From Cephalotus follicularis (Eukaryota; Streptophyta; Magnoliopsida; Oxalidales; Cephalotaceae): a DNA stretch of 64,000 bases. The stretch lies in NCBI GenBank assembly GCA_001972305.1, contig BDDD01005878.1, positions 1-64,000 of the forward strand. Direction: 5' to 3'. The translations under genes were made by a program, and so were the position numbers. The stretch's first letter is position 1. Every line of letters begins with the position of its first letter. Positions 1-61,062 of the stretch are shown here, one piece after another. The notes beneath the pieces are model-generated. The model was not told the origin of the DNA. It did not search any database and saw nothing but the letters and a program-made list of their open reading frames with translations.

Positions 1-1238
1 AATTTATAAAATCAGTATTATTCAACTTACTCAAAAGTAATAAAACAAACTTTGTTCAAATCATATCAAAATTAAGAATCTGTACGAAAAGATATCTGAA
101 TTTATTTCAATAAAATCAGAGAACATGAACGAAGTGTCTAGGATAAATAAGGAAGACGACCAAAGCGTCGACGGTAAGACAAAAGCGTCGACGCTTAATC
201 CTTTCCATGCAATACGCGTCGATGTTTACGAAATGCGTTGACGTGCTTACGCCATTACAAAACGATAAGACCACAACGCTAAGTCGTTGACACTTCGAAA
301 GAAGGCGTCGACGCTTAACGCCCAGAATTTGAAAATAAAGAGTTTTCAAAAACAAAAATTCAAATGGGCCAAAAACACATAACATAAATCATATCGCATC
401 TGAAAAAACGTAATAGATGATGTTAAATATATAGACAACGAGCTGGGTTATTACAGGAAACAAACAACCCTTTGCATGGAACATTTCATAATGGTGTTGC
501 TTGAACTCATTTCAATGAAATGATAGGTTCAACAAATAAAATGCTCACTAGCAAAGTAACATCTTCCTTAGATGTTATCCTTTCACTAAATGATAAGTCA
601 CTAGACACATCAACCTGTTCCAAAACCAGGCGGGACCAGAAAGCCTGGTTGGTTTCCGGTACAACCATATATTTCTTAGAAATCACATGATTCTGGTACT
701 GCCATCTTGATAGTCCTAGAGTATCTAAAGGCCCTAGTGTGATCTCCAAATCACCCCCGGATCCATGTACACCACGTCTATCAGTCGTTAGCCGTATTAA
801 CCAGGGCTTTATTCTTGTCATCAGCATATGTGTCATGTATCTCTCATCATCTTGGCTTCGGCCGTGGACTAGGGTTTGGATTAATGTCACCCCAGTTAAA
901 GCCGCGATAACTATAATTCTATGATCACATTGAGACTATCGGGAGACATCCCAGCAAACCTCGTTTCCAATCTCCCAAGTGCTTGGTGAAGACTTTACGT
1001 CTTCAACGGTCATAGATGTTATAGAGCCTATAACCTTCAACACATGTGTGATGATCCCATCTTACGCACTCACCCATACAACTCAATGCAACTCCCACAA
1101 GGCCCAAAGACAACCCTTTTAACAGCATGTGGCTAGTGCTGGGGAAGGGGGAAATCAAAGCCAAGCAGTTACTACTCAACGCATGCCAGCTGCTCAAGTT
1201 TAAAGGTACAACGTAGGCCAAGACCTACTGGTCACCAT
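1..1238 (-). mobile_element. J: copia LTR fragment, same broad family as the LTRs at 20691-27150 and 30851-33098
   Basis: This is non-coding sequence cut off by the window edge on the left and by another LTR on the right. Positions about 930-1238 resemble 26400-26640 and 32340-32600: the same order of a 'cgcactc' block, a 'gggaa..aaatcaaa' block and a 'gctcaagtttaaagg' block is seen in all three. A GTCGAC word island lies at about 150-315, as in the LTR at 30851-33098. The orientation (minus) is inferred from those relatives. It is a broken fossil, and its age cannot be estimated without its partner LTR. The short ORFs here look like noise. Confidence 0.5.
150..316. repeat. GTCGAC word island, dialect GCGTCGACGCTT
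   Basis: About six loosely spaced copies of a palindromic word are visible (for example AAAGCGTCGACGCTTA and GGCGTCGACGCTTA), with variants such as GCGTCGATGTTTA and GCGTTGACGTGCTTA. The spacer sequence between copies is not conserved, so this is an island of words and not an ordinary tandem repeat. Confidence 0.8.
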
Positions 1239-2144
1239 TGTAACATCCCCGAACTGTGGGATCCCTTAAAGGACATATAACATAACATAACGAAATATAA
1301 CAGCATAATAAAGCTCATCTTTATTGAAACATGATGGTCTGAAACATAATTGATATCTAAACATAGTTTGGAGGCTTAAACATAAACCAAATGTCATAAT
1401 ATGTAACTATCATATTATTCATAAAACTAGTCCCAACATGACCATAATACATCATAGCATAGTAGGATCAAACTCCTAGATGATCCTCAACTTAGGTGAA
1501 CACTCTCATCACACATTACCCCGGTGCTCCTGATAACCTGCCGCATGGAAAACAAAATCCGGTTGAGCAAACCTCAGCACGAATAAAGAAGGTAAAAACA
1601 TTAAACGATAATTAAAAGTAGTAAGATTTCAAAGTTACTTCAAAACAGAAATCTTAAGCAAAATAAGTTTAAACATACTTTATAAATTCCCTCAGCATTT
1701 TCGTAATAACCAACTCCATAACTTGCAAAAACATAAGCATACCTTTTCAAAACATAAGGTTCCATAACTGAGCATCATAACATATCACATATCAGAAACA
1801 CATATAGCAAGGGATTCATGACATCCACATGCCAATAGAATTGAAGTGTATGGCACTACACAAACAATTCCCATATCATAACATATCACATAAAATATAA
1901 CTAGGATCGATCCATACGCCTCTATCACAAATCCTATCCAAGGATATCAAAGAGAGACACCGTAAACTAATCACCCTGTTACAGAAAGTGTCATATCCCG
2001 GTGCCAGGCCTACGACATGCCTATGGTACGCCCCATTGGTGGGTACAAAAAGCTCAGTATTTCACCATTTCAAAACATTGATTTTATCACAATCAATTTA
2101 AACACATAGAAAGGTTTTGCCAACACATATTCATGAATCGTTCT
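1239..2144 (-). mobile_element. H: gypsy chromovirus LTR fragment
   Basis: The left edge is TGTAACATCCCC, a typical chromovirus LTR terminus. Two blocks match the LTRs at 44062-47604 and, inverted, 58887-61062. One reads on the minus strand as GTGTAGTGCC..CACTTCAATT (about 1810-1860) and the other as the 'gaggtttgctcaaccgg' region (about 1555-1580). The LTR is interrupted on the right by sirevirus A, and I could not find where it resumes. It is a broken fossil with no coding part. Confidence 0.65.
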
Positions 2145-2266
2145 TGTTGACATTTATGTCTCAATCCTAAGTTTTGATGATAACATATTTGTGTTTAACA
2201 AAGTTTCTTAATGTGCAAGAAAGCCATGAAGTGAGAAAAACAGCACAAGAATTATGCAGATACAGG

Positions 2267-2640
2267 TCAGACCGTCGACGCCCAAGGTTAAAGCGTCAGC
2301 GCTTTAGTAGGCAGTCAAGACAAGGGCCTAAGCGTCTACCGGTGGAGCGTTTGGAGAAGTGGAAGAGACACTCAAACCGTCGATGCCCAGATTCAAAGCG
2401 TCTGAGCTTTGGGTACTAAGAGTCTACTCTTTGTGCAAAGAGTCTACCGTCTAAACCAGTGAGCACAATAAGAATTAAAACTGGCCCAAACGTCGACGCC
2501 CAAGACTAAGCGTCAGCGCTTTGAGGTGCCGGTCGACTCCAACGCTTTGAACGCCTACGCTTTGAGCTGACAATTTGAATTCGAGATCCCTAACGGTCAC
2601 ATAAGCGTTGACGCTTTAAAGGTGACAGTCGACGCTTTGG
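2267..2640 (+). repeat. GTCGAC word island in the U3 of A, dialect CGTCGACGCCC / GCGTCAGCGCTTT
   Basis: Roughly ten words are spaced 20-50 bp apart, including ACCGTCGACGCCC, AAGCGTCAGCGCTTT (twice), AAACGTCGACGCCC, GGTCGACTCC, AAGCGTTGACGCTTT and AGTCGACGCTTTGG. The island ends about 95 bp before the TATA box at 2733. Confidence 0.8.
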
Positions 2641-2732
2641 TCAGCTGGAACAGTTTCTGACAGAGTTTTAGTGGACATTCTATTATGGAATCAATCCCAA
2701 TACATTCCCAACGGATCTATGAGGCAAGAAGA

Positions 2733-2740
2733 TATAAATA
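2733..2740 (+). promoter_or_regulatory. TATA box of LTR A
   Basis: TATAAATA lies in the LTR downstream of the word island, with A-rich sequence beyond. Its position fits a plant LTR promoter. The transcription start is not mapped. Confidence 0.55.
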
Positions 2741-3051
2741 CACGAATGTCTTGAAGAAAAAAAGGAAGAGCAACACAAGAGATATCAAATCATTCAAAGA
2801 AATCATACTCCAAGCTTCAAATCAAAAAGGCTTATTTAAAAGCTTTTATCTTGCATTTTAAGCCATTGTTGTTCTCACTTTGTTTAAGTGAATTTATCTT
2901 GTAAAATCCAACCTTGTGAGAGGTTTAGATCGAAACACAACTTCTACCTTCTTTGATTGTAATAGGGGAGTGAACCCAAGAGTGTTGTAAGTGATTGAGT
3001 TCAATCACAAAGGTATACCGAATAGCACCCGAAATTGTATTCGGAGAACTA

Positions 3052-3659: not shown

Positions 3660-4034
3660 TTAACATGTTTCTATGATTGTTGTGAATATGTATGCTTGCT
3701 CAAAATGCTTATTTTCTCATTTTTGCATCATTTGCATTCATTCTCGTGCATTTACGGAAAATCTGCAGAAAAACAGAGCAAAGCGCCGACTATTGCTTTT
3801 AAAGCGTCAGCGCTTTAAAGCGAAATTAGGGTTCAAAATTGGGGAAATTGGTCTAAGCACCGATGCTTAACCCCAAACTGTCCACGCGTTAATAGCATTT
3901 TAAGATAGTAAGCGCCATCTGCCACGCGTTTTCGAACACAAATACAAACCCTAACTTCTAAACACTCCATCTTCGGCGATTTTTTGGGCGATTCTTGTCG
4001 AAAATCAAAGATTAACCTTCGTACAACATCAATC
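3660..4034 (+). promoter_or_regulatory. Spacer of A with GTCGAC-type words and a telo-box before the extra ORF
   Basis: Between the RNase H end and the downstream ORF lies a non-coding spacer. It has words of the A dialect (AAGCGTCAGCGCTTTAAAG near 3802, GCACCGATGCTTA near 3857, CCACGCGTT near 3880 and 3922), then AAACCCTAA (telo-box, 3946-3954) and a pyrimidine-rich leader. Telo-boxes are usual near plant transcription starts. That this drives the next ORF is inference. Confidence 0.4.
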
Positions 4035-5275
4035 ATGGCTAGAACTAAGGATTTTGAGGCAGGACAAGGCTCCAAGGCAAAGAAGAAATCAGCTGGGCAA
4101 AAAGGGAAGGGGAAAGCCACTCAATCTGCCACTCCTGAGGTTACTCCATCTCTTCCTAGGTATCCTGAGGCTTACTTCAATAGAAAAATACTTGTAGGAA
4201 AAGTCTTAGATTTTGATTTTTGCATTAGAGAAGAGTTTCCAATTATTGAATGGATTAGGGTTCAAGGTTTAGAACCATTTTTCTCAATAAATATGCCCAG
4301 TTGTCTCGAACTCATGAAAGAGTTCTATGTGCACATACGAGGTAGCTCTATGGATAGCTTGACCACTATGGTCAAAAATAAGACTATTGACTTGGACTTA
4401 CGTAGACTAAACATTATCTTGAATGTACCAAACGGTGGTGCTATGGGTTGGAATCAACGGTCTTGGGTGACTAGCCAAGATTTTGATAAATAAGACTGTG
4501 TGCGTGTGTTATTTGGTGAGAACGCTGATCATGTTCAGCGAATGTATACTAGGAATCTCCCTTTTCATTATCGATTCCTACACCGTGCGGTATGTACGCA
4601 CATTTTGCCAAAAGCCGGTGGGTTCGACGAGGTGACCCACATGGAAGCCTACACAATGTATCACTTGATTACTGGCCGTAGAATCAATGTTCTCTTCCTG
4701 ATGCTCAATCATATGCATTCTATTCACGACCGAGAGAACGCAAGACTAGGTTATAGCAATATTATAACCAAGATTCTCCACTTTTTCAATATCGACCTTA
4801 CTGGAGAAGTACACCATGATCTTCAAAGTGCTGACAAGCTTGGGAAAGGAACCCTTGGGAGAATGGGGTTCAAAAAGCACAAGAGGCTCGGTACGTGGAT
4901 TCCAAGAGATGAGGACTCCAATCGTGTAGTTGAAGAGGAAGGAGAAGCTGAGTTGGGAGAAGAAGCTGAAAATGTACCACTGTAAATCGAACCTCAAGCT
5001 CCGGATGTCCATCTTCTGAGGAGTAGGTTAGATGAGATCTTTGATGCTATCAAAGGACTACAGCGAAATGTTGAGGAAATGAAGATGAGTATGCAGTCCA
5101 TAAAGAGGCGACAAAAGAGAATTGCCAAAAAGTTTGCTGACATGGGCATTATCGAATATGGAGGACTTATCTCTTCATCTTCTAGCCACGATGACATTCC
5201 CCTGGATGATGTGGCAACCGACGACATGGAGGGAGAGGTCGGTGGTGACGATGAGGGAACCCACATGGATGAATG
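4035..5275 (+). pseudogene. Extra ORF downstream of pol in A (putative plant transposon protein type)
   Basis: The chosen ATG (AATCATGGC) is followed by a lysine-rich N-terminus (KAKKKSAGQKGKGK). A conserved middle follows, with blocks YFNRKILVGK, the HILPKAGGFDEVTHME region and GRMGFKKHKRLGTW. The C-terminus is acidic, then helical and charged (about 5029-5150; LDEIFDAIKGLQ.., QSIKRRQKRIAKK), and looks like a coiled coil. The middle blocks and the C-terminal helix are shared with 23232-24542 and with 38114-39225 (minus). No transmembrane segment is evident, so a classical envelope role is not supported. I believe this matches the domain annotated as 'putative plant transposon protein', but I cannot check it. 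The function is unknown. It is broken, with a few breaks. Confidence 0.65.
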
Positions 5276-7530: not shown

Positions 7531-7543
7531 GATATCATATCGG

Positions 7544-8052: not shown

Positions 8053-8149
8053 AATTGTTATCGAATCGTATCGTATCATTATTGAATCGTGTTGTGTTGT
8101 TATAGATTGTATCGTATCGTTATCGAATCGTTATGAGTCGAATCGTCAT

Positions 8150-14769: not shown

Positions 14770-15000
14770 GAGGTCGACGCTTTTGCTTGAATACATCGAC
14801 GCGTTTTGGTCCCAAAATCTACAGGTCGAATTTGCACAAAGACATCGATCCTTTTGATGAAAGACATCGATGTCTTTCTCATAGAATTTGAAGGTAGGCT
14901 GCAATCCCAGAAAGGACATCGATCCGCAACAAAAGACATCGATGCGTTCACTAGAAACCCAGAAAAGAGATCGATCCCTATGAAAGACATCGACGCTTTT
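14770..15000 (-). repeat. GTCGAC/ATCGAT word island in LTR I
   Basis: About eight words are seen, including AGGTCGACGCTTTT, ACATCGACGCGTTTT, ACATCGATCCTTTTGATG, ACATCGATGTCTTTC, ACATCGATGCG, AGATCGATCCC and ACATCGACGCTTTTT. The ACATCGAC(G/T)C dialect is the one used by sirevirus B. Confidence 0.85.
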
Positions 15001-20685: not shown

Positions 20686-20847
20686 AACTCTGAAAGAATA
20701 AAACTTCGTTTACAGTCATTTAAGGCTGTTGACGATTAAGTCCCAATCCTTGTTTTGATGATAACATATTTGCATCTAACTAAGTTACTTGATGTGCAAG
20801 GAATTACAAGTTGAATATCAAAGTCTAAAACCATCTGCAGAAAAAGA

Positions 20848-21465
20848 AGTCGACTCCTTTCCAATAGCATCGACTCCTTTTGTAACAGAATTAACTGCAA
20901 GGAAAACATCTACCTCCCAGTTATAGCATCGACGTCCGTACCAAAAGAAGTCGACCACTTCCAGAAGACGTCGACTACATTCAAGAAGAAGTCGACTACT
21001 TCAGTAAAAACATCGACGGGATTAGTCATTTTTGGAACAGAAGCTACTGTCTGAAAAATGCACTCAAAGACATCGATCCTCAAAGAAAGACATCGATGTC
21101 CAAGATAAAGACATCGACGCCTTTTTATAGAGATCGACGACATTTTCATCATTCCCAGAAAAAGCATCGACACCAAGTAAAGAGATCGATGCGACATTCA
21201 ACCTGGAGTTTCCCAGAAAAGACATCGACGCCTTTCAGAAAGAAGTCGACGCCTTTTCAAATAGACAACACCCGGGAAAGCTTGAACGGCTAGGTCAACC
21301 ACTTCCAACGGCTACCAAGTAAAAGACATCGACTCCTTTAGAAAAGAAGTCGACGCCTTTTCAAGAGAACAAGAACCGGGAAAGCTGGAACGGCTAGTTT
21401 AACCACCATAACGACTATCAACCAAAAGACATCGACGCCTTTCAGAAAGAAGTCGACGTCTTTGT
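20848..21465 (+). repeat. GTCGAC word island in the U3 of B, dialect ACATCGACGCCTTT / AAGTCGACTCCTTT
   Basis: About 19 words lie in about 620 bp. They alternate between an ATCGA(C/T) form and an AAGTCGAC form: AAGTCGACTCCTTT, GCATCGACTCCTTT, ACGTCGACTAC, ACATCGACGCCTTT, AAGTCGACGCCTTT and others. This is the densest island in the window. Confidence 0.9.
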
Positions 21466-21554
21466 GCCAGCAGAGATAAATTCAACAATTGCAACTCACA
21501 TTCTTTAATCAAAAGCTTCCACAATTTAAGCAACGGCCATAAATCTTTTCTGGC

Positions 21555-21564
21555 TATAAAAGGA
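21555..21564 (+). promoter_or_regulatory. TATA box of LTR B
   Basis: CTATAAAAGG is a near-consensus plant TATA box about 90 bp after the last GTCGAC word. Confidence 0.65.
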
Positions 21565-21892
21565 AGTTTGGAACCTCAGATTATACACTGGAACAACAAC
21601 CAAGAACTACTACAATTCAGATTCAACTACATCAATCACACAATATCAAGAGAAATCCAAATTCAAGCTATCTAGTGTGCAAAAGCTCAAAGTGCCCTAC
21701 ATTGTTCAACAAGCTTCTAAAGCTTCTTTCTTTGAGTGTATCTGAGTGTTTCTTGTTGTGAGCTTTAGTTATTCATATCAACCTACTTAAGAGGTTATTG
21801 TAAACACTTTTCACATTACTTGTAAAAGAGGAGATTCCTCTAAGGCTTTGAGGTCAAAGTCTTGTGATTGAGGTCAATCACGAAGTTGTAAG

Positions 21893-22642: not shown

Positions 22643-23231
22643 TATATTTTATGCTTATATGACATGATTGATCGAATGATGTTTTGATATGATGTTTGTT
22701 GCTGTTTATTGTGCTGTTTTTGGCTTGATTTTTGTGTGCTGCATTGAAAAACGTCGACTCCTTTTCTGGAATTTTTTGTGCTTTGCAAAATAGAGTCGAC
22801 TCCTTTTCTGGAAAAACTGCATCTTATGAAAATGCCATCGACTCCTTTTGAAAGATGTCGATCCCTTTGTGTTTTTCCAAAACACATCGACTTCTTTTCA
22901 AAATACGTCGATCCTTTTTAAAACGCACCATTTTAATAGCAAAATTTTAAAATCGCGTCGACTCCTTCTCTAAAGACGTCGACCTCTTTTCATCAGACAC
23001 TCGACTTCTCCTTAAAAAGTCGACATTTTCTTCATTTCTCATTTTCCCTCTCTCTCCTGGTTTTTCAAAAATTTTCAATCTCTCTGTTTTTAGTCAAAAA
23101 TCGTTTTATTTTGCTCGAAAACTATTCTCTCATCTCTTCTCTTCCACAAACAACGTTTTTCGTCTGTCAAAATCCACTGAATCATTTCTCTCTTTGATCT
23201 TTCCCCTTGTGCACACCACCTGCTTGTCAAA
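22643..23231 (+). promoter_or_regulatory. Spacer of B with GTCGAC words and a pyrimidine-rich leader
   Basis: About ten words of the B dialect (ACGTCGACTCCTTTTC, GAGTCGACTCCTTTTC, GCCATCGACTCCTTTT, GATGTCGATCCCTTT, ACGTCGACCTC and others) lie between about 22750 and 23025. They are followed by a CT-rich leader (23035-23230, with CCCTCTCTCTCCTGG and CTCTCATCTCTTCTCTTCC), like a plant Y-patch and 5-prime UTR. The following ATG is in the context AAAATGCCA. A promoter role for the next ORF is inferred and untested. Confidence 0.4.
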
Positions 23232-24542
23232 ATGCCAAGAACAAAACGTGCCACCAAAAAGAAGGCTGTCTCACCCTCCCAACCAAAGAAATCTGCTAAG
23301 AAGCAGAGATTAGAGGTTAGGGAATCATCTTCTACATCTTCCCACTCCAATTCCTCTTCTGAACAGCCTGTCCCAATCCAAACCCTAAGTTTTGTTGAGA
23401 AAAGGGTAATGGGAGGCAGAAATATTGATTATGATTTCTGTTCCTCCAAATTTTCGTTTGTGTCATGGTTGGATAACCTACATTTACTCCCCTTAGTCCA
23501 AATCTCTAACCCTTTTTATATAAAATTGGTTAAAGATTTTTACTCAAATATAAAAATGGTTTCCGATCAAAACCAAGAATTCGCTGTAACTTCTGTGGTT
23601 AAAGGTCAGCGTATGTATCTCGATACTAGAATTTTAGCTTCGATTCTTCATATTCCACATCACGGCATTTATGTTTTCGAACATAAAAAATGGCCGGAGG
23701 TTGAGGGTTTTCACCCTAATCAAATTCTTTCCATTTTGTATCCCAATGATCCAAACGTCCATCCGAATATGTCTCTCACAACCAACCGTTTGTCTGTCGA
23801 TCATAGGCTCCTCCACCACCTTATTGTGCACCAAATTTTACCCACCGGTGGAGGGTACGCCAAATTATCTCGGATGCAAGTATTTATCATGTGGTGCATC
23901 ATTTCAAAAGTCGAATTTTGTTTCCCCCTCTTGATTCTTAAGACTATGGTGCGAGCATATTCCCAGAAAAAATCTGTCCTACCTTATGGTTCTCTTCTCA
24001 CTCTTATCTTCCTACACTATCACATTCCTCTTGAAGGAGAGACCCCCACAAAGCTGAAAAAGGAAGACACGTACAATAAGAGTACGTTAAATAGAATGGG
24101 ATGGAAGAAGGAGGAAGGAATATGGACATATCACCCTAGAGCGGATCAAGCTCCTAGGCTTGCAAGGGAGGAACAAGAAGACAACCCCCCTTGGGAACAT
24201 GATGCCACTGCACCAGCAGCACCTGCCCCTGCACACACAGATCCCTCATCATCCACTGCTGATTACGATCGCATGATGGAGTTCATGGAAGCAAAATTTG
24301 CTGCCATGGAAGGCTCACTCAAAGAAGTCCACTCACGGCTCAATCGTTTGGAAGGTGATATCAAGACTATTCATAAGGACTCCCAACTCACTGATGACAA
24401 CATCTTTTACGACTTAAAGGTCACAAAAAGAAGATTAAAGAGGATGGAGAGGAAGCTCGCCGAATCAAAGACAATTGATCAAGTTGAAGAAACTTCGGGC
24501 GACGAATCCAGATCAGTTTCTTCCACTCCTGCTGAGCCTTGA
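23232..24542 (+). CDS. Extra ORF downstream of pol in B, 436 aa, uninterrupted
   Basis: This is the longest open frame of its kind here. The N-terminus (1-30) is basic (MPRTKRATKKK..KKSAKKQR, a likely nuclear-targeting stretch) and is followed by a serine-rich linker. Residues about 60-300 form a conserved middle (RNIDYDFC near 63, ILPTGGGYAKLS near 204, LNRMGWKK near 286) shared with 4035-5275 and 38114-39225. An acidic/alanine-proline linker follows, and residues about 343-415 look like a coiled coil (heptad-like MMEFMEAKFAAMEGSLKEV and RLKRMERKL). No signal peptide or membrane segment is seen. It resembles proteins labelled 'putative plant transposon protein', and its function is unknown. 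Alternatives are a DNA- or chromatin-binding accessory factor or a particle component. Confidence 0.75.
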   Translation: MPRTKRATKKKAVSPSQPKKSAKKQRLEVRESSSTSSHSNSSSEQPVPIQTLSFVEKRVMGGRNIDYDFCSSKFSFVSWLDNLHLLPLVQISNPFYIKLVKDFYSNIKMVSDQNQEFAVTSVVKGQRMYLDTRILASILHIPHHGIYVFEHKKWPEVEGFHPNQILSILYPNDPNVHPNMSLTTNRLSVDHRLLHHLIVHQILPTGGGYAKLSRMQVFIMWCIISKVEFCFPLLILKTMVRAYSQKKSVLPYGSLLTLIFLHYHIPLEGETPTKLKKEDTYNKSTLNRMGWKKEEGIWTYHPRADQAPRLAREEQEDNPPWEHDATAPAAPAPAHTDPSSSTADYDRMMEFMEAKFAAMEGSLKEVHSRLNRLEGDIKTIHKDSQLTDDNIFYDLKVTKRRLKRMERKLAESKTIDQVEETSGDESRSVSSTPAEP

Positions 24543-36278: not shown

Positions 36279-36825
36279 TGTAGGAAGTCTAGAGGGGGGG
36301 TGAATAGACTTATAAAAATAATCTAGCAAATATCCTAGAAAAAAAATAAACACAATCAATCAAAAACAAAAATTAAAGAGTGTAGGGTTAAGAAAGTTGT
36401 AAACAAATATATAGTGGTTCGGCAAACTGCCTACATCCACTCCCCAAGGCCTCCCCTTGAGTGTTTCACTAGTTTTCCCCAATCCGGGCTTGACGTTCCA
36501 ACCGAGCTTCAACAACTTTCGCTTCAACCAAGCGAATACAAGATAGCTCCCTCCGAGCTATACAAGAGACAACCTCTCTTGTTTACAAGTAAATTGAAAG
36601 TGTTTTAATGATTCACAAATTCTCAATGAATTTGTTTACAATTTAGCTCAAATCTATCAAAGCTTCTAGTGATTGAGAATGTAAAAAGGGAAGGCTTTGT
36701 AATGTGTGAAATTGCTTCAATATAATCTCTTTTGGTGTTGAGAGTGTTTAGAATGATGCTTGAGTTGCCTTGAATGAATATCCAACTTGATTGCGTGAAG
36801 TTATTTTAAGAATGCTCCACTTTGG

Positions 36826-36833
36826 CTTATAAA
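36826..36833 (-). promoter_or_regulatory. TATA box of the 3-prime LTR of C
   Basis: TTTATAAG on the minus strand, about 43 bp downstream of the nearest GTCGGC word at 36876. The counterpart in the other LTR is at 48169-48176. Confidence 0.5.
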
Positions 36834-36875
36834 CATGTGCTCCAACGGATCTATTTTTCAATGTCTGGCACAATC

Positions 36876-37394
36876 CAGTCGGCTGGATTTCCTGGGCAGT
36901 CAGCTGGAGTTGATGGCACATTTTTTAAATATAGCCATTGGTGAAGGCAGTCGGCTGCTTCCTCTGGACAGTCGGTTGTATCTCCTGGGCAGTCGGCTGG
37001 TGCTCTGTTCCAGTCGGCTGCTTGAGGTGGATAGGACTTCCAAAAAGCTACTGCCTCATTTTGACACACTTGACAGCCGACTGGAGATGTTGATAGTCAA
37101 CTGGTGACCCTTGGCAGTCGACTGGTGTCCTGCTTCAGTCGACTGGTTGAGGTGGTGTAGAGTTCAAAAACCTACTACCTCATTTTGACACACTTGACAG
37201 TCGACTGGACCCCCTTGGCAGTCGGTTGTTTTGTCCTGGCAGTCGGCTGCTCCCCTGACGCAGTCGGCTGCTCCCCTGACGCAGTAGGCTGGTGTGGAGT
37301 GTACCTACATTGCTGGGATTCCTTCAAGAACCAGTCGGCTATTTGATCCAAACAGTCGGTTGCTCAACCAAGACAGTCGGCTATTTTTGCCTGT
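36876..37394 (-). repeat. GTCGAC/GTCGGC word island in the 3-prime LTR of C, dialect CAGTCGGCTGG
   Basis: About 18 words lie in about 520 bp: CAGTCGGCTGG, CAGTCAGCTGG, CAGCCGACTGG, CAGTCGACTGG (several), CAGTCGGTTG and CAGTCGGCTGCTCC (repeated). The word itself is palindromic (CAGTCGACTG). It is copied in the 5-prime LTR at 48219-48735. Confidence 0.93.
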
Positions 37395-37547
37395 ATCTAC
37401 AGAAATAGCCTCTGCACAACTTTGGACATTAAATCAAGTGAGTATATGAGTTGATGGTTCAGAGAATTATGCATATAGGTATTACATATTTGTCAATCAG
37501 CGAAATAACACATGTCAAGACAATTAACGGGGTGGCAAGGGCCAACA

Positions 37548-38113: not shown

Positions 38114-39225
38114 TCATGACGATCCGGGAGGAGGGTTTTGTGGAAAAGCATTTTGGAACATCTGGATGAGAGTGGCTTGGCCTTCATAGATTTGATCCAT
38201 TCTCCCTCTAAGGTATTCAATGTCCACTTGTGCCAAGTCCATCCTTGCCTGAAGGGACTCAAGAGTGGGCCTGCTGCCACTGCTGCTGCTCGCACCAACG
38301 TTTGCCCTCACTTCAAACTGTTGAGCATCATCTTCCTCTTCCTCTTCATCCACATCTCCTCCGGCTCTCATAGGTGGTTCCCTCACAGGTTCTCTGCCTC
38401 CAACCACTTGTTTTACCCACACACCATCCTCAAACTTAATATTGCAGTTTCTAAGCCCGGCTTTGTTAATGAGTTGCTTATGGGATGGTTTAACCTTGTG
38501 CTTATCATTAGGTATATCAAGGTTAAGGGATGCTAGGATCCTACTTATAAGCATTGGGTAAGGAATGTGTTTTGGTCTAGACAACATATGGTTAACAATA
38601 AGGTAGGGAAGGTTCACAAGAGTGCCATTTTTTATGCAAGCCATAAGTTTAAGGTCTCGCTCGGATGGGAGTGTGTGCGAGCCTTCTCTAGGTAAAAGAG
38701 TGTTTGTGATAATTAAAAGGAGAATGCGGATGGCTATGGGAAGATGGCTACTAGTCACGGTCATGATAGGGTTAAAGTCAGGGCGTTCTAAGAAAATACC
38801 TATTGCTTCCAATTTCTCAACGTCATTAAAGTGAGTAATGCCGGATTAGGTATTTCTAAGGTTTCGGCAATGAGATCCAGGGTTATGGACACCGGATTAC
38901 CTAAGATAAAGGAATTTGCTACACAGGTTGTAGAATTATCAAGATTGGCCTAAAAAAGTTTCACAAGTCTAGGGTTAATGGTGTGTGATGAGCACAAATA
39001 TTCAAGCCATCCCATTTGCTCTAGCCAATACTTAATAACAGCAATATTACTAACTAGAATATCACTAGCAAACCATTTTTCATTGTGCAATTTAATAAAA
39101 TTAAGGACGGAGAGATACCTAGTTTCTTTCTCCTTGGAGAGAAAAAGTTCATTATCATAGTCAATCACACCTTGAGATGTCCGTGGTTGCCTTGTTGCTA
39201 CGCTCTTTCTTCTCTTGGATGCCAT
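38114..39225 (-). pseudogene. Extra ORF downstream of pol in C
   Basis: The minus-strand start has MASKRRKSVATRQPRTS, a basic N-terminus as in A and B. The middle has LNFIKLHNEKWFASDILVS, LLLIITNTLLPREGSH, PYPMLISRILASLNLDIP and LRNCNIKFEDGVWV, which align in order with the middles of 4035-5275 and 23232-24542. An acidic linker (GGDVDEEEEEDDAQQ) and a C-terminal coiled-coil-like helix follow (TLESLQARMDLAQVDIEYLR, near 38180-38270). No membrane segment was recognised. The function is unknown. It may be an accessory protein of the sirevirus lineage. It is broken, with a few breaks. Confidence 0.7.
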
Positions 39226-39633
39226 TTGGATTGATTGTAGGTCGTTTGTAGAGAGAGTTAGGGTTTTGGGTAGGTTTTTAGAGAGAAGGGTTAAGAGAAA
39301 AGAGGGGAAATCGGGTTTTTAAAACCTGATTCCCGAGCTTCCAGTCGACTGGGCTATTTTGGCCAGTCGATTGGATGTTTAGGCAGTCGACTGGAAAATG
39401 AGTTCAGTCGGCTGGTTTCTGCAGAATTTGGAAAATACAGAAAATTGCCTATCCCTTTGATTCGCAAACCTTTAGTCAACTATTATGGACTAATAGTAAC
39501 TTAGGTATATGAGCAATTTGATGTAATTGAGTTAAAAATTCAATGTTGAATGCATGATAAATTTTGAAAAGCATTTTTCATACTAATTCACACAACTTTT
39601 AGCCAAACATTGCAAATGTGCATATAATGAGAT
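39226..39633 (-). promoter_or_regulatory. Spacer of C with GTCGAC words, pyrimidine-rich leader and telo-box
   Basis: On the minus strand the RNase H end is followed by an AT-rich stretch. Four words of the C dialect come next (39338-39415: AGCCGACTGA, CAGTCGACTGCC, CAATCGACTGG, CAGTCGACTGG). The sequence continues with TTTTAAAAACCC, a CT-rich run (CCCCTCTTTTCTCTTAACCC) and AAACCCTAA (39258-39266), about 33 bp before the ATG. It looks like a small plant promoter and leader. Function is inferred. Confidence 0.4.
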
Positions 39634-40383
39634 TTAAGAGGGATTTTGCATATCTAGCTCCCTTCGCAACGTGCAGAACCTCTCATTGTCCAAAGGCTTG
39701 GTAAAAATATCTGGAACTTGATTCAAAGTGTCAATATATTCAAGAAAAATATCTCCTTTTTCAACATGATCTCTAAGGAAGTGATGTCTAATTTCAATGT
39801 GTTTTGACTTAGAGTGTTGAACAGGATTCTTACTCAAATTGATTGCACTAGTATTATCACATTTTATGCACACATTGTCAATGTGAATGCCAAAATCACA
39901 AAGTTGTTGTTTTAACCCCAATGCTTGTGCACAACAACTTCCCACCGCTACATATTCGGCTTCGGTGGTGGAAAGAGCAACACTATTTTGTTTCTTAGAA
40001 AACCATGACGTTAAAGAGTTGCTAAGAATTTGGCAAGTGCCACTAGTGCTCTTTCTATCTAGTTTACACCCACCATAATCGGCATCGGAAAAAGTATGCA
40101 AGTTAAACAAGGAATCATTTGAGTAAAACAAACCTAGTAAAGGAGTATATGCAAGATATCTAAAGATACGCTTAACCGCGATTAAGTGAGTTTCTTTAGG
40201 TGAAGATTGGAACCTAGCATAAAGGCACACACTAAACATAATATCCGGTCTACTAGCGGTAAGATAAAGGAGATATCCTATCATGCTTCTATAGAGTTTT
40301 TGATCTACCTCTTTACCATCTTCATCTTTGTCGAGTTTGGTAGTAGTGCTCACCGGAGTCTTGCAAGGCTTTGAGTTTTCCAT
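39634..40383 (-). pseudogene. RNase H and RT end of C
   Basis: This is a 249-codon frame with KTPVSTTTKLDKDEDGK, YLLYLTASRPDIMFSVCLYA, FSDADYGGCKLDRKSTSGTC, FSKKQNSVALSTTEAEYVAV, KCDNTSAINLSKNPVQHSK and DIFTKPLDNERF. It matches 21893-22642 along its whole length. It is the end of copia pol, just before the spacer and extra ORF. This frame itself is open, but it is part of a broken polyprotein. Confidence 0.9.
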
Positions 40384-41080
40384 TCCAAATCATTTGAGTA
40401 GATCTTTTGTGTATTTGGATTGGTTGATGAAGGTGCCTTCATTTCCTTGTGATATTTGAAATCCAAGGAAGTACTTGAGTTCACCAATCATACTCATCTC
40501 GAATTCACCTTGCATAATGTTAGCAAACTCAACACAAAGAGAGTCATTAGTAGAACCGAAAATGATATCATCAACATAGATTTGTACAATTAAAATGTCA
40601 TTAAGTTTGGTTTTTACAAAAATATTTTTGTCAACTAAACCTCTTTTAAAATCATTTTCCAAGAGAACTTTAGAAAGCCTTTCATACCAAGCTCTTGGTG
40701 CTTGCTTTAAACCATAAAGTGCTTTTGACAATTTAAAAACATGATCAGGAAAGTGTACGTTTTCAAACCCCGGAGGTTGTTCAACATAAACTTCTTCATT
40801 TATAACGCCATTTAAAAATGCACTTTTGACATCCATTTGATGCAATTTAAAACCTTTAAAACATTCAAAGGCCATTAGTAATCTAATAGCTTCTAACCTA
40901 GCTACGGGAGCAAAGGTCTCATCATAGTCAATGCCTTCTTCTTGACTATAACCTTGTGCAACTAATCTAGCTTTATTTCTAATAACCAACCCATTTTCAT
41001 CCATTTTGTTACGAAAAACCCATTTTGTTCCAATGGTGGATTGATTTTAAGGCCTCAGAACTAAGGACCAAACATTACTT
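40384..41080 (-). pseudogene. Reverse transcriptase of C
   Basis: The minus strand has KARLVAQGYSQEEGIDYDET, FAPVARLEAIRLLMAF, FKLHQMDVKSAFLNGVINE (catalytic D of MDVKSAFLNG), EVYVEQPPGFE, SKALYGLKQAPRAWYERLS and VQIYVDDIIFGSTN (catalytic YVDD). This is canonical copia RT and copies the RNA genome into DNA. A 204-codon frame covers most of it. It is a broken fossil. Confidence 0.92.
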
Positions 41081-42689
41081 TTGTCAAATTGGTTTAGTTC
41101 CTCTTGCATTGCCATAATCCAAAAATCATCTTTTAAAGCATCGAAAATATTTTTGGGTTCGATATTTCAAATAAAAGCAACATTGTCACAATACTCCCTA
41201 AGAGAGGAACGAGTTCTTACCCCTTCGGTAGGATTACCGATTACCTTGTTGTCCTTGACATACTTTCTTTCTCTTATTGCTACGGGCTCCTTGGTGACTT
41301 GAATTTGTTGGAGTTCTTCTTCATGTACATCTTCTTTTTCAATTTTGTCAACTTCAACATCATCTTTGGAGATGTCCAAGCCTTCCATTTGGTCCAATAT
41401 ACCTACATCATCAACAATATCTCCCTTTCTCGGAGCACTATTAGTCTCTTCAAATAATACATGAATAGATTCTTCAATAATTAAAGTCCTCTTATTGAAT
41501 ACTCTATAGGCTTTAGAATTTAAAGAGTAACCTAAAAATATTCCTTCATCACTCTTGGCATCGAATTTACCAAGATTATCTTTCCCATTGTTCAAAATAA
41601 AAACCTTGCAACCAAAAGGTCTCAAATGACTAACATTTGGTTTTCTATCATTAAAAAGTTCATATGGGGTTTTCTTTAAAATGGACCGAATCATTACCCT
41701 ATTTATAATATAGCAAGCGGTGTTCACGGCTTCGGCCGAAAGATATTTTGGCAAATTATTTTCACAAAGCATGGTTCTCCCCATTTCTTTTAGAGTTCTA
41801 TTCATCCTTTCAACAACACCATTTTGTTGAGGAGTTCTAGGAGCCGAGAAGTTATGGTGAATACCAAGTTAATCACAAAAAATTTCAAAACCAAGGTTTT
41901 CAAATTCTTTTCCGTGATCACTACGTATGCTTACAATAGATAGACTCTTTTCATTTTGAATACGTCTACCGAATTTAATGAAGGAATCTAAAGCATCACT
42001 CTTTAAAGCTAGGAAAATGACCCAAGTAAATCTAGAGTAATCATCTACTATAACTAGGCCATATTGTTACCACTAATGCTTAGAGTTCTAGTTGGTCCAA
42101 ACAAGTCAATGTGCAATAGTTGTAAAATCCTAGTAGTTGAAATAATATTTTTGGCTTTAAAAGAAGTTCTAGTTTGTTTCTCTTGTGCACAAGCATCACA
42201 AAGTTTGTCATTTTCAAATTTCATTTTAGGCAAGCCAATGACTAAATCTTTTCTAGAAAGTTTAGCGAGCATATCCATGCTAGCATGGCCCAACCATCTA
42301 TGCCAAAGCCATATATCATTTGTATTAGCATTGAAGCAAACATTTTTGGAAAACATTTCTTTTAAATACTCAACATACACATTCCCTTGTCTATGACCAA
42401 CAAACTTTACATCAATGGTGCTAGTATCAATAATGTGACAAAGTGAGGATTCAAAATTAACTTTATATCCTTTATCACATAATTGGCTAACACTAAGCAA
42501 ATTATGCTTGAGCCCTACAACATAAGAAACATTTTCGATTAAGATATTGAATTCGTTACCTATCGAACCAATGCCAACAATCTTGGCTTTGTTGTTATCT
42601 CCGAAGGTGACCTTTCCTCCATCAACTTCTTTAAGATCAGAGAAGAGGCTTTTGTCACCGGTCATGTGCTTTGAGCAACCGCTATACAC
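41081..42689 (-). pseudogene. Protease and integrase of C
   Basis: The 5-prime end has GCSKHMTGDKSLFSDL, the copia protease block, and ENVSYVVGLKHNLLSVSQLC. The GAG-pre-integrase part follows (LWHRWLGHASMDMLAKLSR, CDACAQEKQTRTSF with the HHCC pattern), then the core start LLHIDLFGPTRT. Further on come NRTLKEMGRTMLCENNLPKY, KKTPYELFNDRKPNVSHLRP and FGCKVFILN, the integrase C-terminal blocks. The order is that of copia pol. It is a broken fossil with several breaks. Confidence 0.88.
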
Positions 42690-44015
42690 GTACCATGGTT
42701 ATTCCTCCTTGTGATTTGCTCGCAAACATCTTTCCACCTACAAAGGTGTTAAATAATTTTGATCTTGGTACCCATTGTTTATTGGGTGCATTAATGTTAC
42801 AGTTTTGTCTTATTGTTCCTTTAGGAACCCAAATTTGTCTAAATGTGATAGTATTTTGATTTGGAGAAGGTCTAGTGTGTGAATGAAAATGAGCAATCTT
42901 TTTAAAGCATTTATCAACAACATGTCCTACCTTATGACAATATGTGCAATGAGGTCTTGTTTTTGTGTTCTTTAATTTTGCCTTAACCTCTAAAGGAGTA
43001 TAACCTATACCAGTTTTATCTAGGTAAGGTCTTTGGATAGCAAGCATTTCTTCTAGTTTCATGCTTCCTAGTGTGAATTTGCTAAAGGACTTCTCTAGGT
43101 TCACATTTTTCTTTTTAAGGGATTATACTTCCTTTTATAGATTTACATTGTCACAAGAAGTAGTCTTAACTACACAATCAACCTTTTTAGCAAGTTCATG
43201 TTCCAAGATACCAATATCGTTTTTCAAATGCTCATTTTCAATAACTAGCAAGTCCTTTTCTTTTTCAATACTAGCCATATTTTTCTTAGTGATTAGTATT
43301 GAGAGCATTTCTTTTTAAATTCTACAAGCAATTCATCAAAAGCAAATTGTAATTCACCAAAGGTATAGGAATCATCTACCTCATTATCGCTTTCCTCGTT
43401 GTCACTCGATGCCATGAAGCAAAGGTTGGCAACTTGTTCGGTGACTTCATCATCGAAAGATTCATCATCACTTAAGTGCCATGCTTTGAGGGCTTTCTTC
43501 TTGAAGAGCTTCTTCTTCTTCAATTGAGGACAATCCACCTTGATGTGTCCCGGTTTGTTGCACTCCAAGCAAGTGGGAGGATCCATCTTGCTTCCTTCTC
43601 CTTTGTTGGGATTTTTCTTTTGAAAACATCTAGCTTTATTCATCTTTGCGAATTTTGTGAATCGTTTCGCAAAGAGAACGTAGTCTTCTTCTTCTAACTC
43701 CTCATCACTCGAGATTTCTTCTTTGTGAGTGCTTTTGAGGGCAATGTCCTTCCTCCTTTCTTCTTGAGGCTTTTTCTCCACAAGGTTATCTCATTCGTCT
43801 TCCGTTTTAGCAACGCATTCATTTTTATCATTTATTTTCATGGGAATGTGAGGACCATTTTTGACACTAAGCCAATTCTTGAAGTCTCTGGACTTAAGGT
43901 AAATCTCCATACGACTTTTCCAATAGGGAAGATCGTCACCACTAAAAAATGGTACCTTAAATTCGGAGACATCGTCATGGTTTCTAGTTTGGTTATTTAT
44001 GCTAGTGGATGCCAT
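42690..44015 (-). pseudogene. Gag of C (sirevirus type) with two CCHC knuckles
   Basis: It starts MASTSINNQTRNHDDVSEF and PFFSGDDLPYWKSRMEIYLK, typical of the SIRE/Maximus gag N-terminus. A charged segment holds the first zinc knuckle CLECNKPGHIKVDC (near 43530). An acidic stretch and a coiled part follow (43290-43450), and a second knuckle CTYCHKVGHVVDKC lies near 42920. A long Gag with a late second knuckle is usual for sireviruses. It would form the particle and bind genomic RNA. It is a broken fossil. Confidence 0.85.
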
Positions 44016-47619: not shown

Positions 47620-48168
47620 ATTGTAGGAAGTCTAGAGGGGGGGTGAATAGACTTATAAAAATAATCTAGCAAATATCCTAGAAACAAAATAATCACAATC
47701 AATCAAAAACGGAAATTAAAGAGTGTAGGGTTGAGAGAGTTGCAAACAAATATATAGTGGTTCGGCAAACCGCCTACGTCCACTCCCCAAGGCCTCCCCT
47801 TGAGTGTTTCACTAGTTTGCCCCAATCCGGGCTTGAAGTTCCAACCGAGTTTCAACGACTTTCGCGTCAACCAAGCGAATACAAGATAGCTCCCTCCGAG
47901 CTATACAAGAGACAACCTCTCTTGTTTACAAGTAAATTGAAAGTGTTTTAATGATTCACAAATTCTCAATGAATTTGTTTACAATTTAGCTCAAATCTAA
48001 CAAAGCTTCTAGTGATTGAGAATGTAAAAAGGGAAGGCTTTGTAATGTGTGAAATTGCTTCAATATAATCTCTTTTGGTGTTGAGAGTGTTTAGAATGAT
48101 GCTTGAGTTGCCTTGAATGAATATCCAACTTGATTGCTTAAAGTTATTTTAAGAATGATCCACTTTGG

Positions 48169-48176
48169 CTTATAAA
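48169..48176 (-). promoter_or_regulatory. TATA box of the 5-prime LTR of C
   Basis: TTTATAAG on the minus strand, about 43 bp downstream of the first word at 48219. This is the copy that would have driven the element. Confidence 0.55.
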
Positions 48177-48218
48177 CATGTGCTCCAACGGATCTATTTT
48201 TGAATGTCTGGCACAATC

Positions 48219-48735
48219 CAGTCGGCTAGATTTCCTGGGCAGTCAGCTGGAGTTGATGGCGCGTTTTCAAATATAGCCATTGGTGAAGGCAGTCGGCTGC
48301 TTCCTCTGGACAGTCGGCTATTTCTCCTGGGCAGTCAGGTGGTGCTCTGTTCCAGTCGGCTGCTTGAGGTGGATTGGACTTCCAAAAAGCTACTGTCTCA
48401 TTTTGACACACTTGACAGCCGGCTGGAGATGTTGACAGTCGACTGGTGACCCTTGGCAGTCGACTGGTGTCCTGCTTCAGTCGACTAGTTGAGGTTGTGT
48501 GGAGTTCAAAAACCTACTGCCTCATTTTGACACACTTGACAGTCGACTGCACCCCCTTGGCAGTCGGTTGTTTTGTCCTGGCAGTCGGCTGCTCCCCTGA
48601 CGCAGTCGGCTGGTGTGGAGTGTACCTGCATTGCTGGGATTCCTTCAAGAACCAGTTGGCTATTTAATCCAAAGAGTCGGCTGCTCAACCAAGACAGTCG
48701 GTTGCCCAACCTGGGCAGTCGGCTGTTTTTGCCTG
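48219..48735 (-). repeat. GTCGAC/GTCGGC word island in the 5-prime LTR of C
   Basis: This is the same island as 36876-37394 with point differences. About 18 words such as CAGTCGGCTGC, CAGTCGACTGG and CAGTCGGTTG are present. Confidence 0.93.
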
Positions 48736-48889
48736 TATCTGTAGAAATAGCCTTTGCACAACTTTCGACATTAAATCAAGTGAGTATATGAATTGATGGT
48801 TCAGAGAATTATGCACATAGGTATTACATATTTGTCAATCATCGAAATAACACATGTCAAGACAATTAACGGGGTGGCAAGGGCCAACA

Positions 48890-55421: not shown

Positions 55422-55423
55422 AC

Positions 55424-57899: not shown

Positions 57900-58045
57900 A
57901 TCAAACCAATCCACTGGTATGTGGTCATTAGTCGATTGGTAAGTACTGGTTGACTAGTAAGGCTCACCATTCGACTGGTTTGTGGTTATTAGTCGATTGG
58001 TAAGTACCAGTTGAATAGTAAGGCTCGCCAGTTGACTATTAGTCA
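57900..58045. repeat. GTCGAC-like word island, dialect TAGTCGATTGGT
   Basis: About eight words (CACTGGTATGTGG, AGTCGATTGGTAAGTAC, GTTGACTAGTAAGGCTC, TTCGACTGGTTTGTGG, AGTTGACTATTAGTC) lie in a repeated frame of about 65 bp. They look like decayed forms of the CAGTCGACTGG dialect. Confidence 0.75.

Positions 58046-58578: not shown

Positions 58579-58629
<51 letters not shown>
58579..58629. repeat. (AG)n microsatellite
   Basis: An uninterrupted AG run of about 25 units. The frame across it encodes an Arg-Glu repeat and is not a gene. Confidence 0.97.
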
Positions 58630-58634
<5 letters not shown>

Positions 58635-58886
58635 TGTTTTGTGAGTTATTGTGATGTGTTTGTGTGGTGCAGTATAGAGATATGGAGAGTGAGACAGAGG
58701 GGGAGAAGGGTACAGGTGAGATGGGCAGTGATGGAGAGTGAGTGTTACTTGTGTAAGAGGGTTGACCTTTTATGAAGAAATGAGTGGCTCACATTGATTC
58801 AATTCATATGGTTATGATTAATAGCGGTCCAATCCTCCAAAACTCGATTTAAATGTACTCGAACAGTAATAGAAATAGGTATGCAT

Positions 58887-61062
58887 TGTAATACCCTGCT
58901 CGTCCGTGAATGTGTTTTACGGACTTTTATGTGTTTGTGTTCGGGCTTTTTAATTGTGTTTAATTTTAAAGTCCGGTTGCCCTATGTTTTGGGCTTATGT
59001 GAATTGGGCTGACTGATACCAGTCCGAATATTTGGGTATGATATGCTATGTTGGGTTTTGGGTTTTATTTTAATTAAGAAAATTTTATTTTATTAAAACA
59101 ATTTTTCTTATTTTAAAAAGAAAATCCTTTTATTTCATTATTTTAATTAATTTTCTTTTTCCTTTTATTGTTCTTTTCCTTTATTCCTTTTCTTCCTATT
59201 TTCTTCTCTTCTTTCCTTTTCTCCTTCTTTCTCACCCGAAGTCACTCCTCCTTCTTTACTTCCACACGTTTGTAATCTTTTCTTTCCTTTCTAATTCCCC
59301 ACAAATCCACCTTTCTTCCCTTTATAGCAGATTTTGTCTCCTCTTTTCCCTTTGAAGAATGACATTGCCGTTTATATGTTACCTCCTCTTTTCTACAAAA
59401 TATCACTGTCGAATTCTCTTTGTGGTGTCTGTGTAGCTGCTGTGTAAACGTTTTCCTCAAGTCTGAAGAGGTAAATTCGATCCTTTAGTTGTTCTTTTGA
59501 GTTGAATTCATTGGGTTTGCTAAGCTTCTCTTTGTTTTGGTTTCCCTTGGTTTCCTTCTGGTCTCTATTTTGTCACAGCCATTTGTGAGTGTGTGCTAGT
59601 GTTCCTTCTACCGTATTCGTGTTCTGGGAAATCATTACAGGTCAGTTAATTCGTTTTCCCTAGTGATGGTTTTGTTTGAATGTCATAATTTGAGTTTTAT
59701 GCTCTTAATGTCTTTTGGTTTCAATTCCTGCCTAATGTGTTGTCATTGTGTTAATAGGATTGTCAACACATTTTATACACATAGTTATGTCATAAACTGG
59801 GTTTATAACATCTGTAATTGATAAAGGACAGAATCTGGACATATATATGCATTATCTTCTTGCTACATTTTGAAAGATAAGTCACCGTCAGGTTGTTTTC
59901 TTGTCAAATATGTGTTTTTATTTCACCTAAAAGTCATACATGATCATATGTTTATGTCTATATATCTTTGGTTTAATGTAGAAACCATTTGAACCATTTT
60001 CAGTATTGAATTGTCGAATTTCCAACTGTTCTATCGTCCAGAACAGTCGGCTGTCTCTGTGGACAGTCAGCTGGATTAGATGAACAGCCGACTGCCTTAG
60101 GTTGAGTAGTCGACTGGAGGCATGAACCAGTCGACTGCCTGCATTTTAGTTTGAGTAGTGGACTGGACCTTATGAATAGTCAACTGTCTTGCTTCCCCAG
60201 TCGACTGGTGCCCTGTATTAGTCGACTGTTTTGCCCAAAAATGTACTGTTTTCAACTGTTTTAATCCGTTTGATCCTCGAATCGATCCGAGTCTTCACCA
60301 AACACTGTTATGAGTCTGTTTAACATTTATGGTGTGTTTTAGACTCTTATACGTATGATTTGAATAGGTGTGATCGGATATGTGTATGTGAGAATTGACT
60401 TGTGTAGTGCCGTACACTTCAATTCTAGTGGGCATGTGGAATTAGCGCCTCCCTTGCCAAATTTATGTTATGTGATATGTATATGGCTCAGTATGATTTG
60501 TGATTTATGACTTATGATTCACAAATAATTTTATGAAATGCATCGTAAATGTTTCGAAAGTTATCTGGATTTATGAAAGTCCAAATATGATTTTACAATT
60601 ATGTATCTGTTTTAATTACTTACAATTTTTGTTATGTTATTATTGAAATATTAATGTTTTTAAATTATGGTTTACTGTTTTATTTCCCTTTATCCGTACT
60701 GAGGTTTGCTCAGTCGCGTTTTTGTTTCCATGCGGCAGGTTCTCAGGAGCAGTGGGGGAAAGTGTGACGAGTGATGACCACCTTTTGTGATAGGATCCCT
60801 AGGAGTGTGATCCCTTGTTTTATGCCTAATGGTCTGAACACTTTTGAGATACATATGTTTATGTTTTAATTTCAAAACCGGGTTATGTTTTAAGTTTAAG
60901 TTTATTTTCCGCAACTGTTAAAATTGTTAAGTTTTGAACAGTTTGTTTAAGTTTCAGATATGATATGACCACCAGGTTTTCAGCTGTTAAGTTATGTTAT
61001 GATAAGTTATGTTATGCTATGATATGACCCTGTGACGACTCCCGCCGTCCGGGGGTGGTACA
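58887..61062 (+). repeat. 5-prime LTR of N
   Basis: 2176 bp from TGTAATACCC to GGGGTGGTACA. It carries a pyrimidine-rich block (59160-59310) and a word island (60030-60235). It also has blocks shared with O and H (GTGTAGTGCCGTACACTTCA near 60404 and CCGTACTGAGGTTTGCTCAG near 60696). A possible intron is discussed under findings. Confidence 0.88.
60030..60235 (+). repeat. GTCGAC word island in gypsy LTR N, dialect CAGTCGACTGG
   Basis: About nine words: ACAGTCGGCTGTC, ACAGTCAGCTGG, ACAGCCGACTGCC, AGTCGACTGGAGG, CAGTCGACTGCC, AGTGGACTGG, AGTCAACTGTC, CAGTCGACTGGTG and AGTCGACTG. It is the same dialect as copia C. Confidence 0.92.

Follow-up and report, generated by a model that had tools for sequence, protein, structure and literature searches.

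The DNA analyzed here is a stretch of 64,000 nucleotides from the genome of Cephalotus follicularis (positions 1 to 64,000 of contig BDDD01005878.1; "the window"), which holds Ty1/copia and Ty3/gypsy long terminal repeat (LTR) retrotransposons. An earlier note, made from the letters alone, claimed that it contains at least a dozen islands of short palindromic words with a CG core, and printing the sequence verified all 13 of the islands listed there. The words come in three dialects, each of which is found in one group of Sirevirus-type copia elements and in one or more Ty3/gypsy LTR families, and we propose that they may be binding sites for the protein of the Sirevirus envelope-like gene, ORF3. 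Clusters and element families were studied in the window together with a further 200 kb from this genome, and words were also counted across the 1.58 Gb assembly, in which the window is contig C5877. Lineages were assigned to the superfamily level, by Pfam matches and gene order; finer labels (Tat/Athila, Del) are presumptive.

Element C is on the reverse strand. Its 5' LTR (47621..48889) and 3' LTR (36278..37547) are 93% identical, and its gag, protease, integrase, reverse transcriptase (RT), and RNase H (39634..43790, from open reading frames (ORFs) and Pfam) are in the Ty1/copia order. An extra envelope-like ORF lies past RNase H (ORF3-C, in two ORF pieces, 38114..39318; the C-terminal piece scores E 4.4e-10, under the curated cut-off), which is the Sirevirus layout. 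The primer binding site (PBS) used to recognize the genus, TATCAGAGC, is present at 47608 (recorded beside the 5' LTR as TGGTATCAGAGC). We therefore call element C Sirevirus-type, a label founded on architecture. Islands of dialect I words (CAGTCGACTG) lie in its 3' LTR (36876..37394), in its 5' LTR (48219..48735), and directly upstream of ORF3-C (39338..39415); all three pass the cluster test described below.

Elements A and B, on the forward strand, retain RNase H and an ORF3 of the same kind. The LTR of A (2143..2980, with an approximate 3' boundary) matches L017 9095-9910, in which 9095-9881 belongs to an LTR pair of 97% identity (C1:589095-589881/595872-596658). It contains a dialect II island (AAGCGTCGACGCTT; 2267..2640, printed and passing the strict test), and degenerate dialect II words (3780..3930, with zero strict words and hence no cluster) lie directly upstream of ORF3-A. 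This envelope-like gene (3912..4985, in two ORF pieces) matches PF20167 (Transposase_32) at E 3.8e-4 in the first piece, the one scanned, which is under the curated cut-off. The LTR of B (20727..21860, also with an approximate 3' boundary) has its start (20727-20803) in common with A. It holds a dialect III island with 19 strict words (20848..21465), a second dialect III island lies in the interval from RNase H to ORF3-B (22750..23025), both pass the cluster test, and ORF3-B itself is an open frame (23181..24539) that matches PF20167 at E 3.3e-21. Between the LTR and RNase H, neither A (2143-3650) nor B (20727-22640) has a match to gag, protease, integrase, or RT, so they are possibly deletion derivatives that have retained ORF3.

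The other carriers in the window belong to different lineages. Gypsy N (forward strand) has a 5' LTR of 2.2 kb (58886..61064; its ends are inferred from TG...CA and from the PBS at 61068, which fixes the end of the LTR but not its start), and its 3' LTR is beyond the window. Within this LTR is a dialect I island (60030..60235; printed, cluster test, and clustering), and gag (Retrotrans_gag), protease, and RT follow (61234..63999), the window ending before the post-RT part. On the reverse strand, copia F has a gag identified by Pfam (Retrotran_gag_2, 28246..28947) with one dialect II island upstream of it (30398..30560) and a second at 31625..31805 (both by the cluster test), and copia J has a dialect II island (150..316) whose neighbor (530-1238) matches L020 DNA past a copia RNase H. 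A dialect III island on the reverse strand (14770..15000) was found by the cluster test and by clustering. Finally, 57900..58045 (forward strand) has mostly degenerate dialect I words, two of them strict, arranged as two copies of 72 bp, 61 bp apart.

A strict cluster requires at least three [AG]TCGA[CT] words with gaps of at most 160 bp. By this test the window has 11 clusters, which match 11 of the 13 listed islands (57900-58045 and 3780-3930 fall short). In the window plus the 200 kb, we found 349 strict words and 37 clusters, versus 145 ± 9 words and 0.95 ± 0.80 clusters in first-order Markov sequence. GTCGAC ranks first among all NNCGNN words in the 200 kb (73 occurrences versus a median of 19). 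Genome-wide counts, which cover two of the three dialects, were 59,682/59,194 (forward/reverse) for CAGTCGACTGG versus 227/204 for its reversed control (about 260-fold) and 36,692/36,599 for GCGTCGACGCTT versus 38/40 (about 960-fold). The reversed controls are conservative because they have fewer CpGs than the words and should be commoner in CpG-poor DNA (CpG in the window is at 0.64 of expectation). The words are also depleted from Sirevirus coding DNA: there are 48 in 4.84 kb of LTR and 24 in 2.15 kb of linker but just one in 11.5 kb of coding sequence. The linker words sit directly ahead of ORF3 in all seven Sirevirus copies examined, one of which has degenerate words only. Thus, words at chance frequency, which the earlier note had named as a refutation, are ruled out. 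An origin by chance or composition in CG-rich, low-complexity DNA has nothing in its favor beyond CpG content, is contradicted by all of these controls and by the coding depletion, and has a negligible probability.

Islands are present in the paired LTRs of two other gypsy elements and in the LTRs of gypsy N, gypsy 3, and gypsy 4. Each of the first two is a 95% identical LTR pair around a gypsy gag and RT (gypsy 1, C1:526089-528638/533373-535955; gypsy 2, C1:556016-558563/563280-565831). The gypsy 2 island and the first gypsy 1 island qualify as clusters in each LTR of the pair, and the second gypsy 1 island does so in the 5' LTR only. The LTR boundaries of gypsy 3 and gypsy 4 are partial, and the second LTR of gypsy 3 was recovered over only 198 bp. 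We saw no word enrichment in the gypsy LTRs P and Eb, in one Tat/Athila-like LTR, or in two other copia LTRs; the gypsy P LTR, which the earlier note implied to carry an island, has none by the cluster test or the enrichment count. Separately, the Sirevirus-type element at L019 341-5943, whose LTRs measure about 230 bp, has neither a detectable ORF3 nor a word island.

The consensus cores are GTCGAC or ATCGAC, and the flanks are CAG..CTG, GCG..CGC, or ACR..YGY. The dialect III word that was described as ACATCGACGCCTTT belongs to a longer palindrome of 18 bp, AAAGRCRTCGAYGYCTTT. As had been claimed, each island keeps to one dialect: the mean distance between words within an island was 4.28, versus 5.64 ± 0.11 after permutation, and none of 1,000 permutations was as low. 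Label-free clustering of 162 words from 21 islands (picked by hand) gave the same three dialects when cut at three; cutting at four split off the islands of the element A LTR, which are the least uniform.

The sharing of dialects by copia and gypsy, which the earlier note had proposed, extends to all three. Dialect I is used by Sirevirus C, gypsy N, and gypsy 1; dialect II by Sirevirus A, gypsy 2, and copia F and J; and dialect III by Sirevirus B and B2, gypsy 3 and 4, and further islands. (The proposed pairing of copia C with gypsy N stands, but copia C is itself Sirevirus-type.) Furthermore, in a small RT tree (14 rows; pieces under 110 residues were dropped, that of L009 among them), gypsy 2, 3, and 4 form one tight clade (support 0.987), yet they have dialects II, III, and III, and gypsy 1 and gypsy N are not sisters, yet both have dialect I, with the deeper nodes being poorly supported. 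Because one clade holds two dialects and non-sisters hold one, dialect does not track gypsy descent.

Do unrelated elements share blocks of LTR or just the words? Template switching or gene conversion could have moved blocks between co-packaged or co-resident elements, and true copies of one family do align far above spacer-shuffled controls (z of 9.5-28). However, the dialect II Sirevirus-gypsy pair has no spacer homology (spacer shuffle, p = 0.23), and the dialect III pairs of a Sirevirus with gypsy 3 show no excess after the word of 18-20 bp is masked. Dialect I Sirevirus-gypsy pairs have small excesses (p of 0.025-0.045, uncorrected over many pairs; 0.025-0.035 when Sirevirus C is paired with gypsy N or gypsy 1), which are points for block transfer, as are the pair of copia F and copia J (spacer-shuffle p = 0.005) and two islands that share somewhat more than words with a Sirevirus: 14770-15000 with Sirevirus B (p of 0 to 0.025) and the L016 island with B2 (block permutation p = 0.010, but spacer shuffle 0.32). 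At L035 1600-1630, the LTR of a Sirevirus C adjoins the leader of gypsy N about 22 bp past the start of the PBS; this could be taken for a transfer junction, but we read it as a nested insertion. Overall, clear sharing across lineages is limited to the words, which would mean either that the words were gained in place or that everything but the words has since been lost. We consider block transfer to be very improbable.

These comparisons bear on several suggestions in the earlier note. Template switching is not supported by the spacer shuffling and block permutation of Sirevirus-gypsy pairs. Local duplication does occur within single islands, but it cannot carry words across lineages. The LTR of gypsy N is not a chimera with a piece of the C LTR, as its island is within its own LTR and has its own spacers. 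The description of the islands as not being tandem repeats is right only in part, because the B and C islands hold diverged duplications at offsets of 104 and 125 bp. Similarly, the spacers lack clear homology between lineages, as described, but their lengths are constrained.

This constraint is apparent in the distances between word centers. Across 35 islands, 91 of 171 adjacent centers are 19-23 bp apart, with a preference for 21 bp, and only two distances are shorter than 19 bp, both of them in L001. In a set of 30 islands, 79 of 148 distances are at 19-23 bp, versus 15% under random placement. Longer distances (26-110 bp) favor a period of 10.3-10.5 bp (R of 0.32-0.33, Rayleigh p of about 4e-4 to 5e-4; n = 68 in the 30-island set). 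Against the random-placement control, the 10.5 bp period has p = 0.0105, or 0.064 with a free choice of period between 8 and 14, and gypsy islands alone have no significant helical rhythm (p = 0.38). So, we reject a strict helical ladder. What holds firmly is the doublet at 21 bp, and the 10.3-10.5 bp rhythm is weaker and modest. Two palindromes that are two helical turns apart suggest dimers on one face of the DNA. As a side note, at L001 1548-1570 and L006 1354-1376, apparently of one family, words 9 and 12 bp apart break the spacing rule. (The first spacing set was 21 of the 37 clusters. It omitted eight second family copies, at 48441 in the window, L012 3520, L013 6898 and 8040, L014 1599, L015 4637, L017 9074, and L018 6001, as well as eight loose or coding clusters, namely two in L010, L011 5266, L014 4851, L015 1108, L016 9207, and two in L020, whose spacings enter the later 35-island analysis. 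The 30-island set omits L001, L006, and the second L007 island; L001 and the L007 island are restored in the 35-island set.)

Another explanation for paired palindromes is a role in RNA: adjacent words could form hairpins that influence regulation, RNA packaging, or small RNAs, a case made before for maize Sireviruses. The words of a doublet could indeed pair, with cross-word complementarity as high as within-word, and the palindrome clusters of maize Sireviruses attract small RNAs (PMC10760457, citing Bousios 2016). Nevertheless, we view an RNA role as improbable because it leaves unexplained both the optimum at 21 bp with the modest rhythm at larger distances and the identical letters in unrelated lineages.

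The words also appear to be under selection. Among diverged copies of Sirevirus A, 48 of 50 word bases were kept (96%), versus 576 of 753 spacer bases (76%), and among diverged copies of gypsy 1 the words were 96% kept versus 86% for the spacers; this comparison covers one Sirevirus family and one gypsy family. CpGs in words survived in 18 of 19 cases in diverged copies, versus 33 of 51 for other CpGs. In contrast, the two LTRs of single insertions showed no difference (309 of 326 for words versus 6551 of 6815 for spacers, over four pairs), and selection after insertion was not seen. Words that are kept between diverged copies but not between the LTRs of one insertion imply selection during propagation: fossil copies seem to decay freely, while propagating lineages retain the words.

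What might read the words? The candidate that we favor is ORF3. ORF3-B has a basic N-terminus (as do the ORF3s of A and B2), the PF20167 domain, and a long C-terminal helix that is likely a coiled coil. It shares 93% identity with a protein from Cephalotus follicularis. It had 353 matches, and the best 120 of these were all from Cephalotus, bar one entry that is the window's own. ORF3-A had 108 matches, and those listed were likewise only from Cephalotus, bar the window's own entry. With regard to the secretion signal and membrane anchor of a retroviral-type envelope, the strongest hydrophobic stretch scores 0.97 in A and 2.03 in B, and 47 of 69 long homologs reach 1.6. In a profile scan of 35 ORF3 proteins at E up to 10, PF20167 was found in all 35, and DUF1985 was not among the 25 families listed out of 28, in a search whose HMMER filters drop most weak matches. 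Searching PDB sequences with profiles of ORF3 yielded no hit under E = 0.14, and comparison to BFVD, made for the fold of a viral glycoprotein, gave no match at E of 0.001 or better. A first structural model, from a narrow alignment, was useless (predicted local distance difference test (pLDDT) of 37). The second model, from an alignment of 35 sequences, was usable (pLDDT 65.8; two of five models exceed 60), and the best PDB match of its predicted core is VANC21, a weak resemblance. We also note a stretch ending in GCAG ahead of the words in the pre-ORF3 linkers of L017 (element A) and of element C in the window (TTTTTGCAG and TTCTGCAG, respectively), which might be a splice acceptor for ORF3; the window copy of A and L018 also have a GCAG, but no distinct pyrimidine tract.

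The VANC proteins of Arabidopsis recognize short motifs that have accumulated in non-coding regions of the transposon encoding them, and their binding leads to loss of methylation (PMC5735166). Related VANCs differ in their motif, and AT9TSD1, which is unrelated but carries the VANC6 motif, also responds to VANC6 (PMC5735166). We favor ORF3 as the binder because the pattern is VANC-like: an element-encoded protein, arrays of motifs in its own element, dialects, and unrelated elements with the same words. In this mechanism, the words would be binding sites that act in cis and were gained independently by several unrelated lineages of LTR retrotransposons. The Sirevirus ORF3 protein would act as a nuclear dimer that reads the TCGA-centered palindrome, with one dialect read per ORF3 clade, and would lift silencing as VANC does for VANDAL transposons. 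Gypsy and other copia elements, which lack ORF3, would retain words of the matching dialect so that Sirevirus-made ORF3 could reopen their LTRs as well. We give a probability of roughly one half to the proposal that ORF3 binds the words and that gypsy and copia F/J exploit it. This connection between the words and ORF3 was not part of the earlier note. More tentatively, and with some doubt, the Sirevirus "envelope" could be a VANC-like, sequence-specific anti-silencing factor that has the repeated palindromic motif boxes of Sireviruses (RM boxes) as its sites, and there would be three ORF3/word channels that gypsy and copia elements repeatedly gain, keep, and switch, exploiting them in trans.

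The other trans-acting factor to consider is a host transcription factor family on which several lineages converged for their transcription. This would account for the selection on the words and for their presence in gypsy and in copia elements that lack ORF3, and there is a precedent in the Brassicaceae, where COPIA elements repeatedly gained heat-shock-factor sites (PMC5059998). It is the main rival but seems less likely than ORF3, because several host paralogs would be needed for three separate dialects that each go with a different Sirevirus ORF3 clade, and because the words directly precede ORF3 in seven copies (one degenerate). Of the explanations in the earlier note, then, convergence on a trans-acting factor fits best, but the host factor named there comes second to ORF3.

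If ORF3 does act on the words, two questions would be joined, namely the role of the envelope-like gene of Sireviruses and the purpose of the palindromic boxes in their LTRs. Anti-silencing would extend from Mutator-like transposons to LTR retrotransposons, and one resource would be exploited across unrelated classes of elements. The dialects offer a built-in test of specificity, with three proteins against three words.

Some other features of the region are worth recording. Element C has an insert of about 3.56 kb exactly at its PBS (44048-47607 in the window, by comparison with L034), which holds a stretch like a gypsy LTR at 44194-45391 and, at 45566-46060, 247 bp that are perfectly duplicated in tandem. 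On either side of element C are 85% identical copies of one gypsy gag segment (35639-36164 and 48892-49418), which differ from a simple target-site duplication. The window also has minisatellites with periods of 69, 40, 17, and 25 bp (7526-8300 and 12738-12966), and L029-L032 (C400:20001-25190 and 44322-52925) are large satellite arrays with a period of about 163 bp.

How do the Cephalotus words compare with known systems? The earlier note was right about repeated motifs in Sireviruses: Bousios et al. described RM boxes in 2010 as being Sirevirus-specific among the Ty1/copia elements that they studied, and a common binding factor could not be named at that time (PMC2829016). Like RM boxes, the Cephalotus words are short palindromes in many copies in the LTR and also upstream of the envelope-like gene, when it is present, and the RM box of Vitis (CGGTCGACCG) includes GTCGAC, as the Cephalotus words do (PMC2829016). 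Unlike RM boxes, they have a TCGA core instead of CGG-CCG (so we call them RM-like; Tnd-1 likewise lacks the CGG-CCG core), they are also in gypsy and other copia elements, and they have three cross-lineage dialects and 21-bp doublets (PMC2829016).

Three other systems are similar in part. The heat-responsive elements of COPIA are also one binding site gained independently by several LTR families, but they have a known host factor, a single kind of site, and no link to an element-encoded protein (PMC5059998). The CpG islands of Del gypsy elements are also a CpG-rich and fast-changing segment of the LTR, but they are from monocots and are absent from the eudicot Del elements studied, and neither a palindromic word nor a word in common with Sireviruses is described in the available part of that report (PMC4029996). 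The palindromes of maize Sireviruses also cluster in LTRs, but they were interpreted via RNA structure and small RNAs (Bousios 2016, via PMC10760457). Among the matches listed from open-licence literature (titles and the openings of abstracts), there was no prior report of RM-like boxes in gypsy, of GTCGAC arrays in Cephalotus, or of a VANC-like Sirevirus ORF3. As far as these searches show, what is apparently new is the presence of the boxes in gypsy and non-Sirevirus copia, dialects that match between superfamilies, the spacing in doublets, selection that differs between diverged copies and the LTRs of one insertion, and the link from ORF3 to VANC.

The closest parallel to our proposal is VANC and the VANDAL transposons. 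ORF3, like VANC, is encoded by the element whose non-coding DNA carries the arrays of short motifs; related elements have different motifs; and the motif is also in an unrelated element (PMC5735166, PMC10398659). The differences are that ORF3 is located between pol and the LTR of a copia retrotransposon instead of in a Mutator-like VANDAL element, that DUF1985 has no match among the families listed for ORF3, and that the Cephalotus word, unlike the VANC motifs, is palindromic and contains CpG (PMC5735166, PMC10398659).

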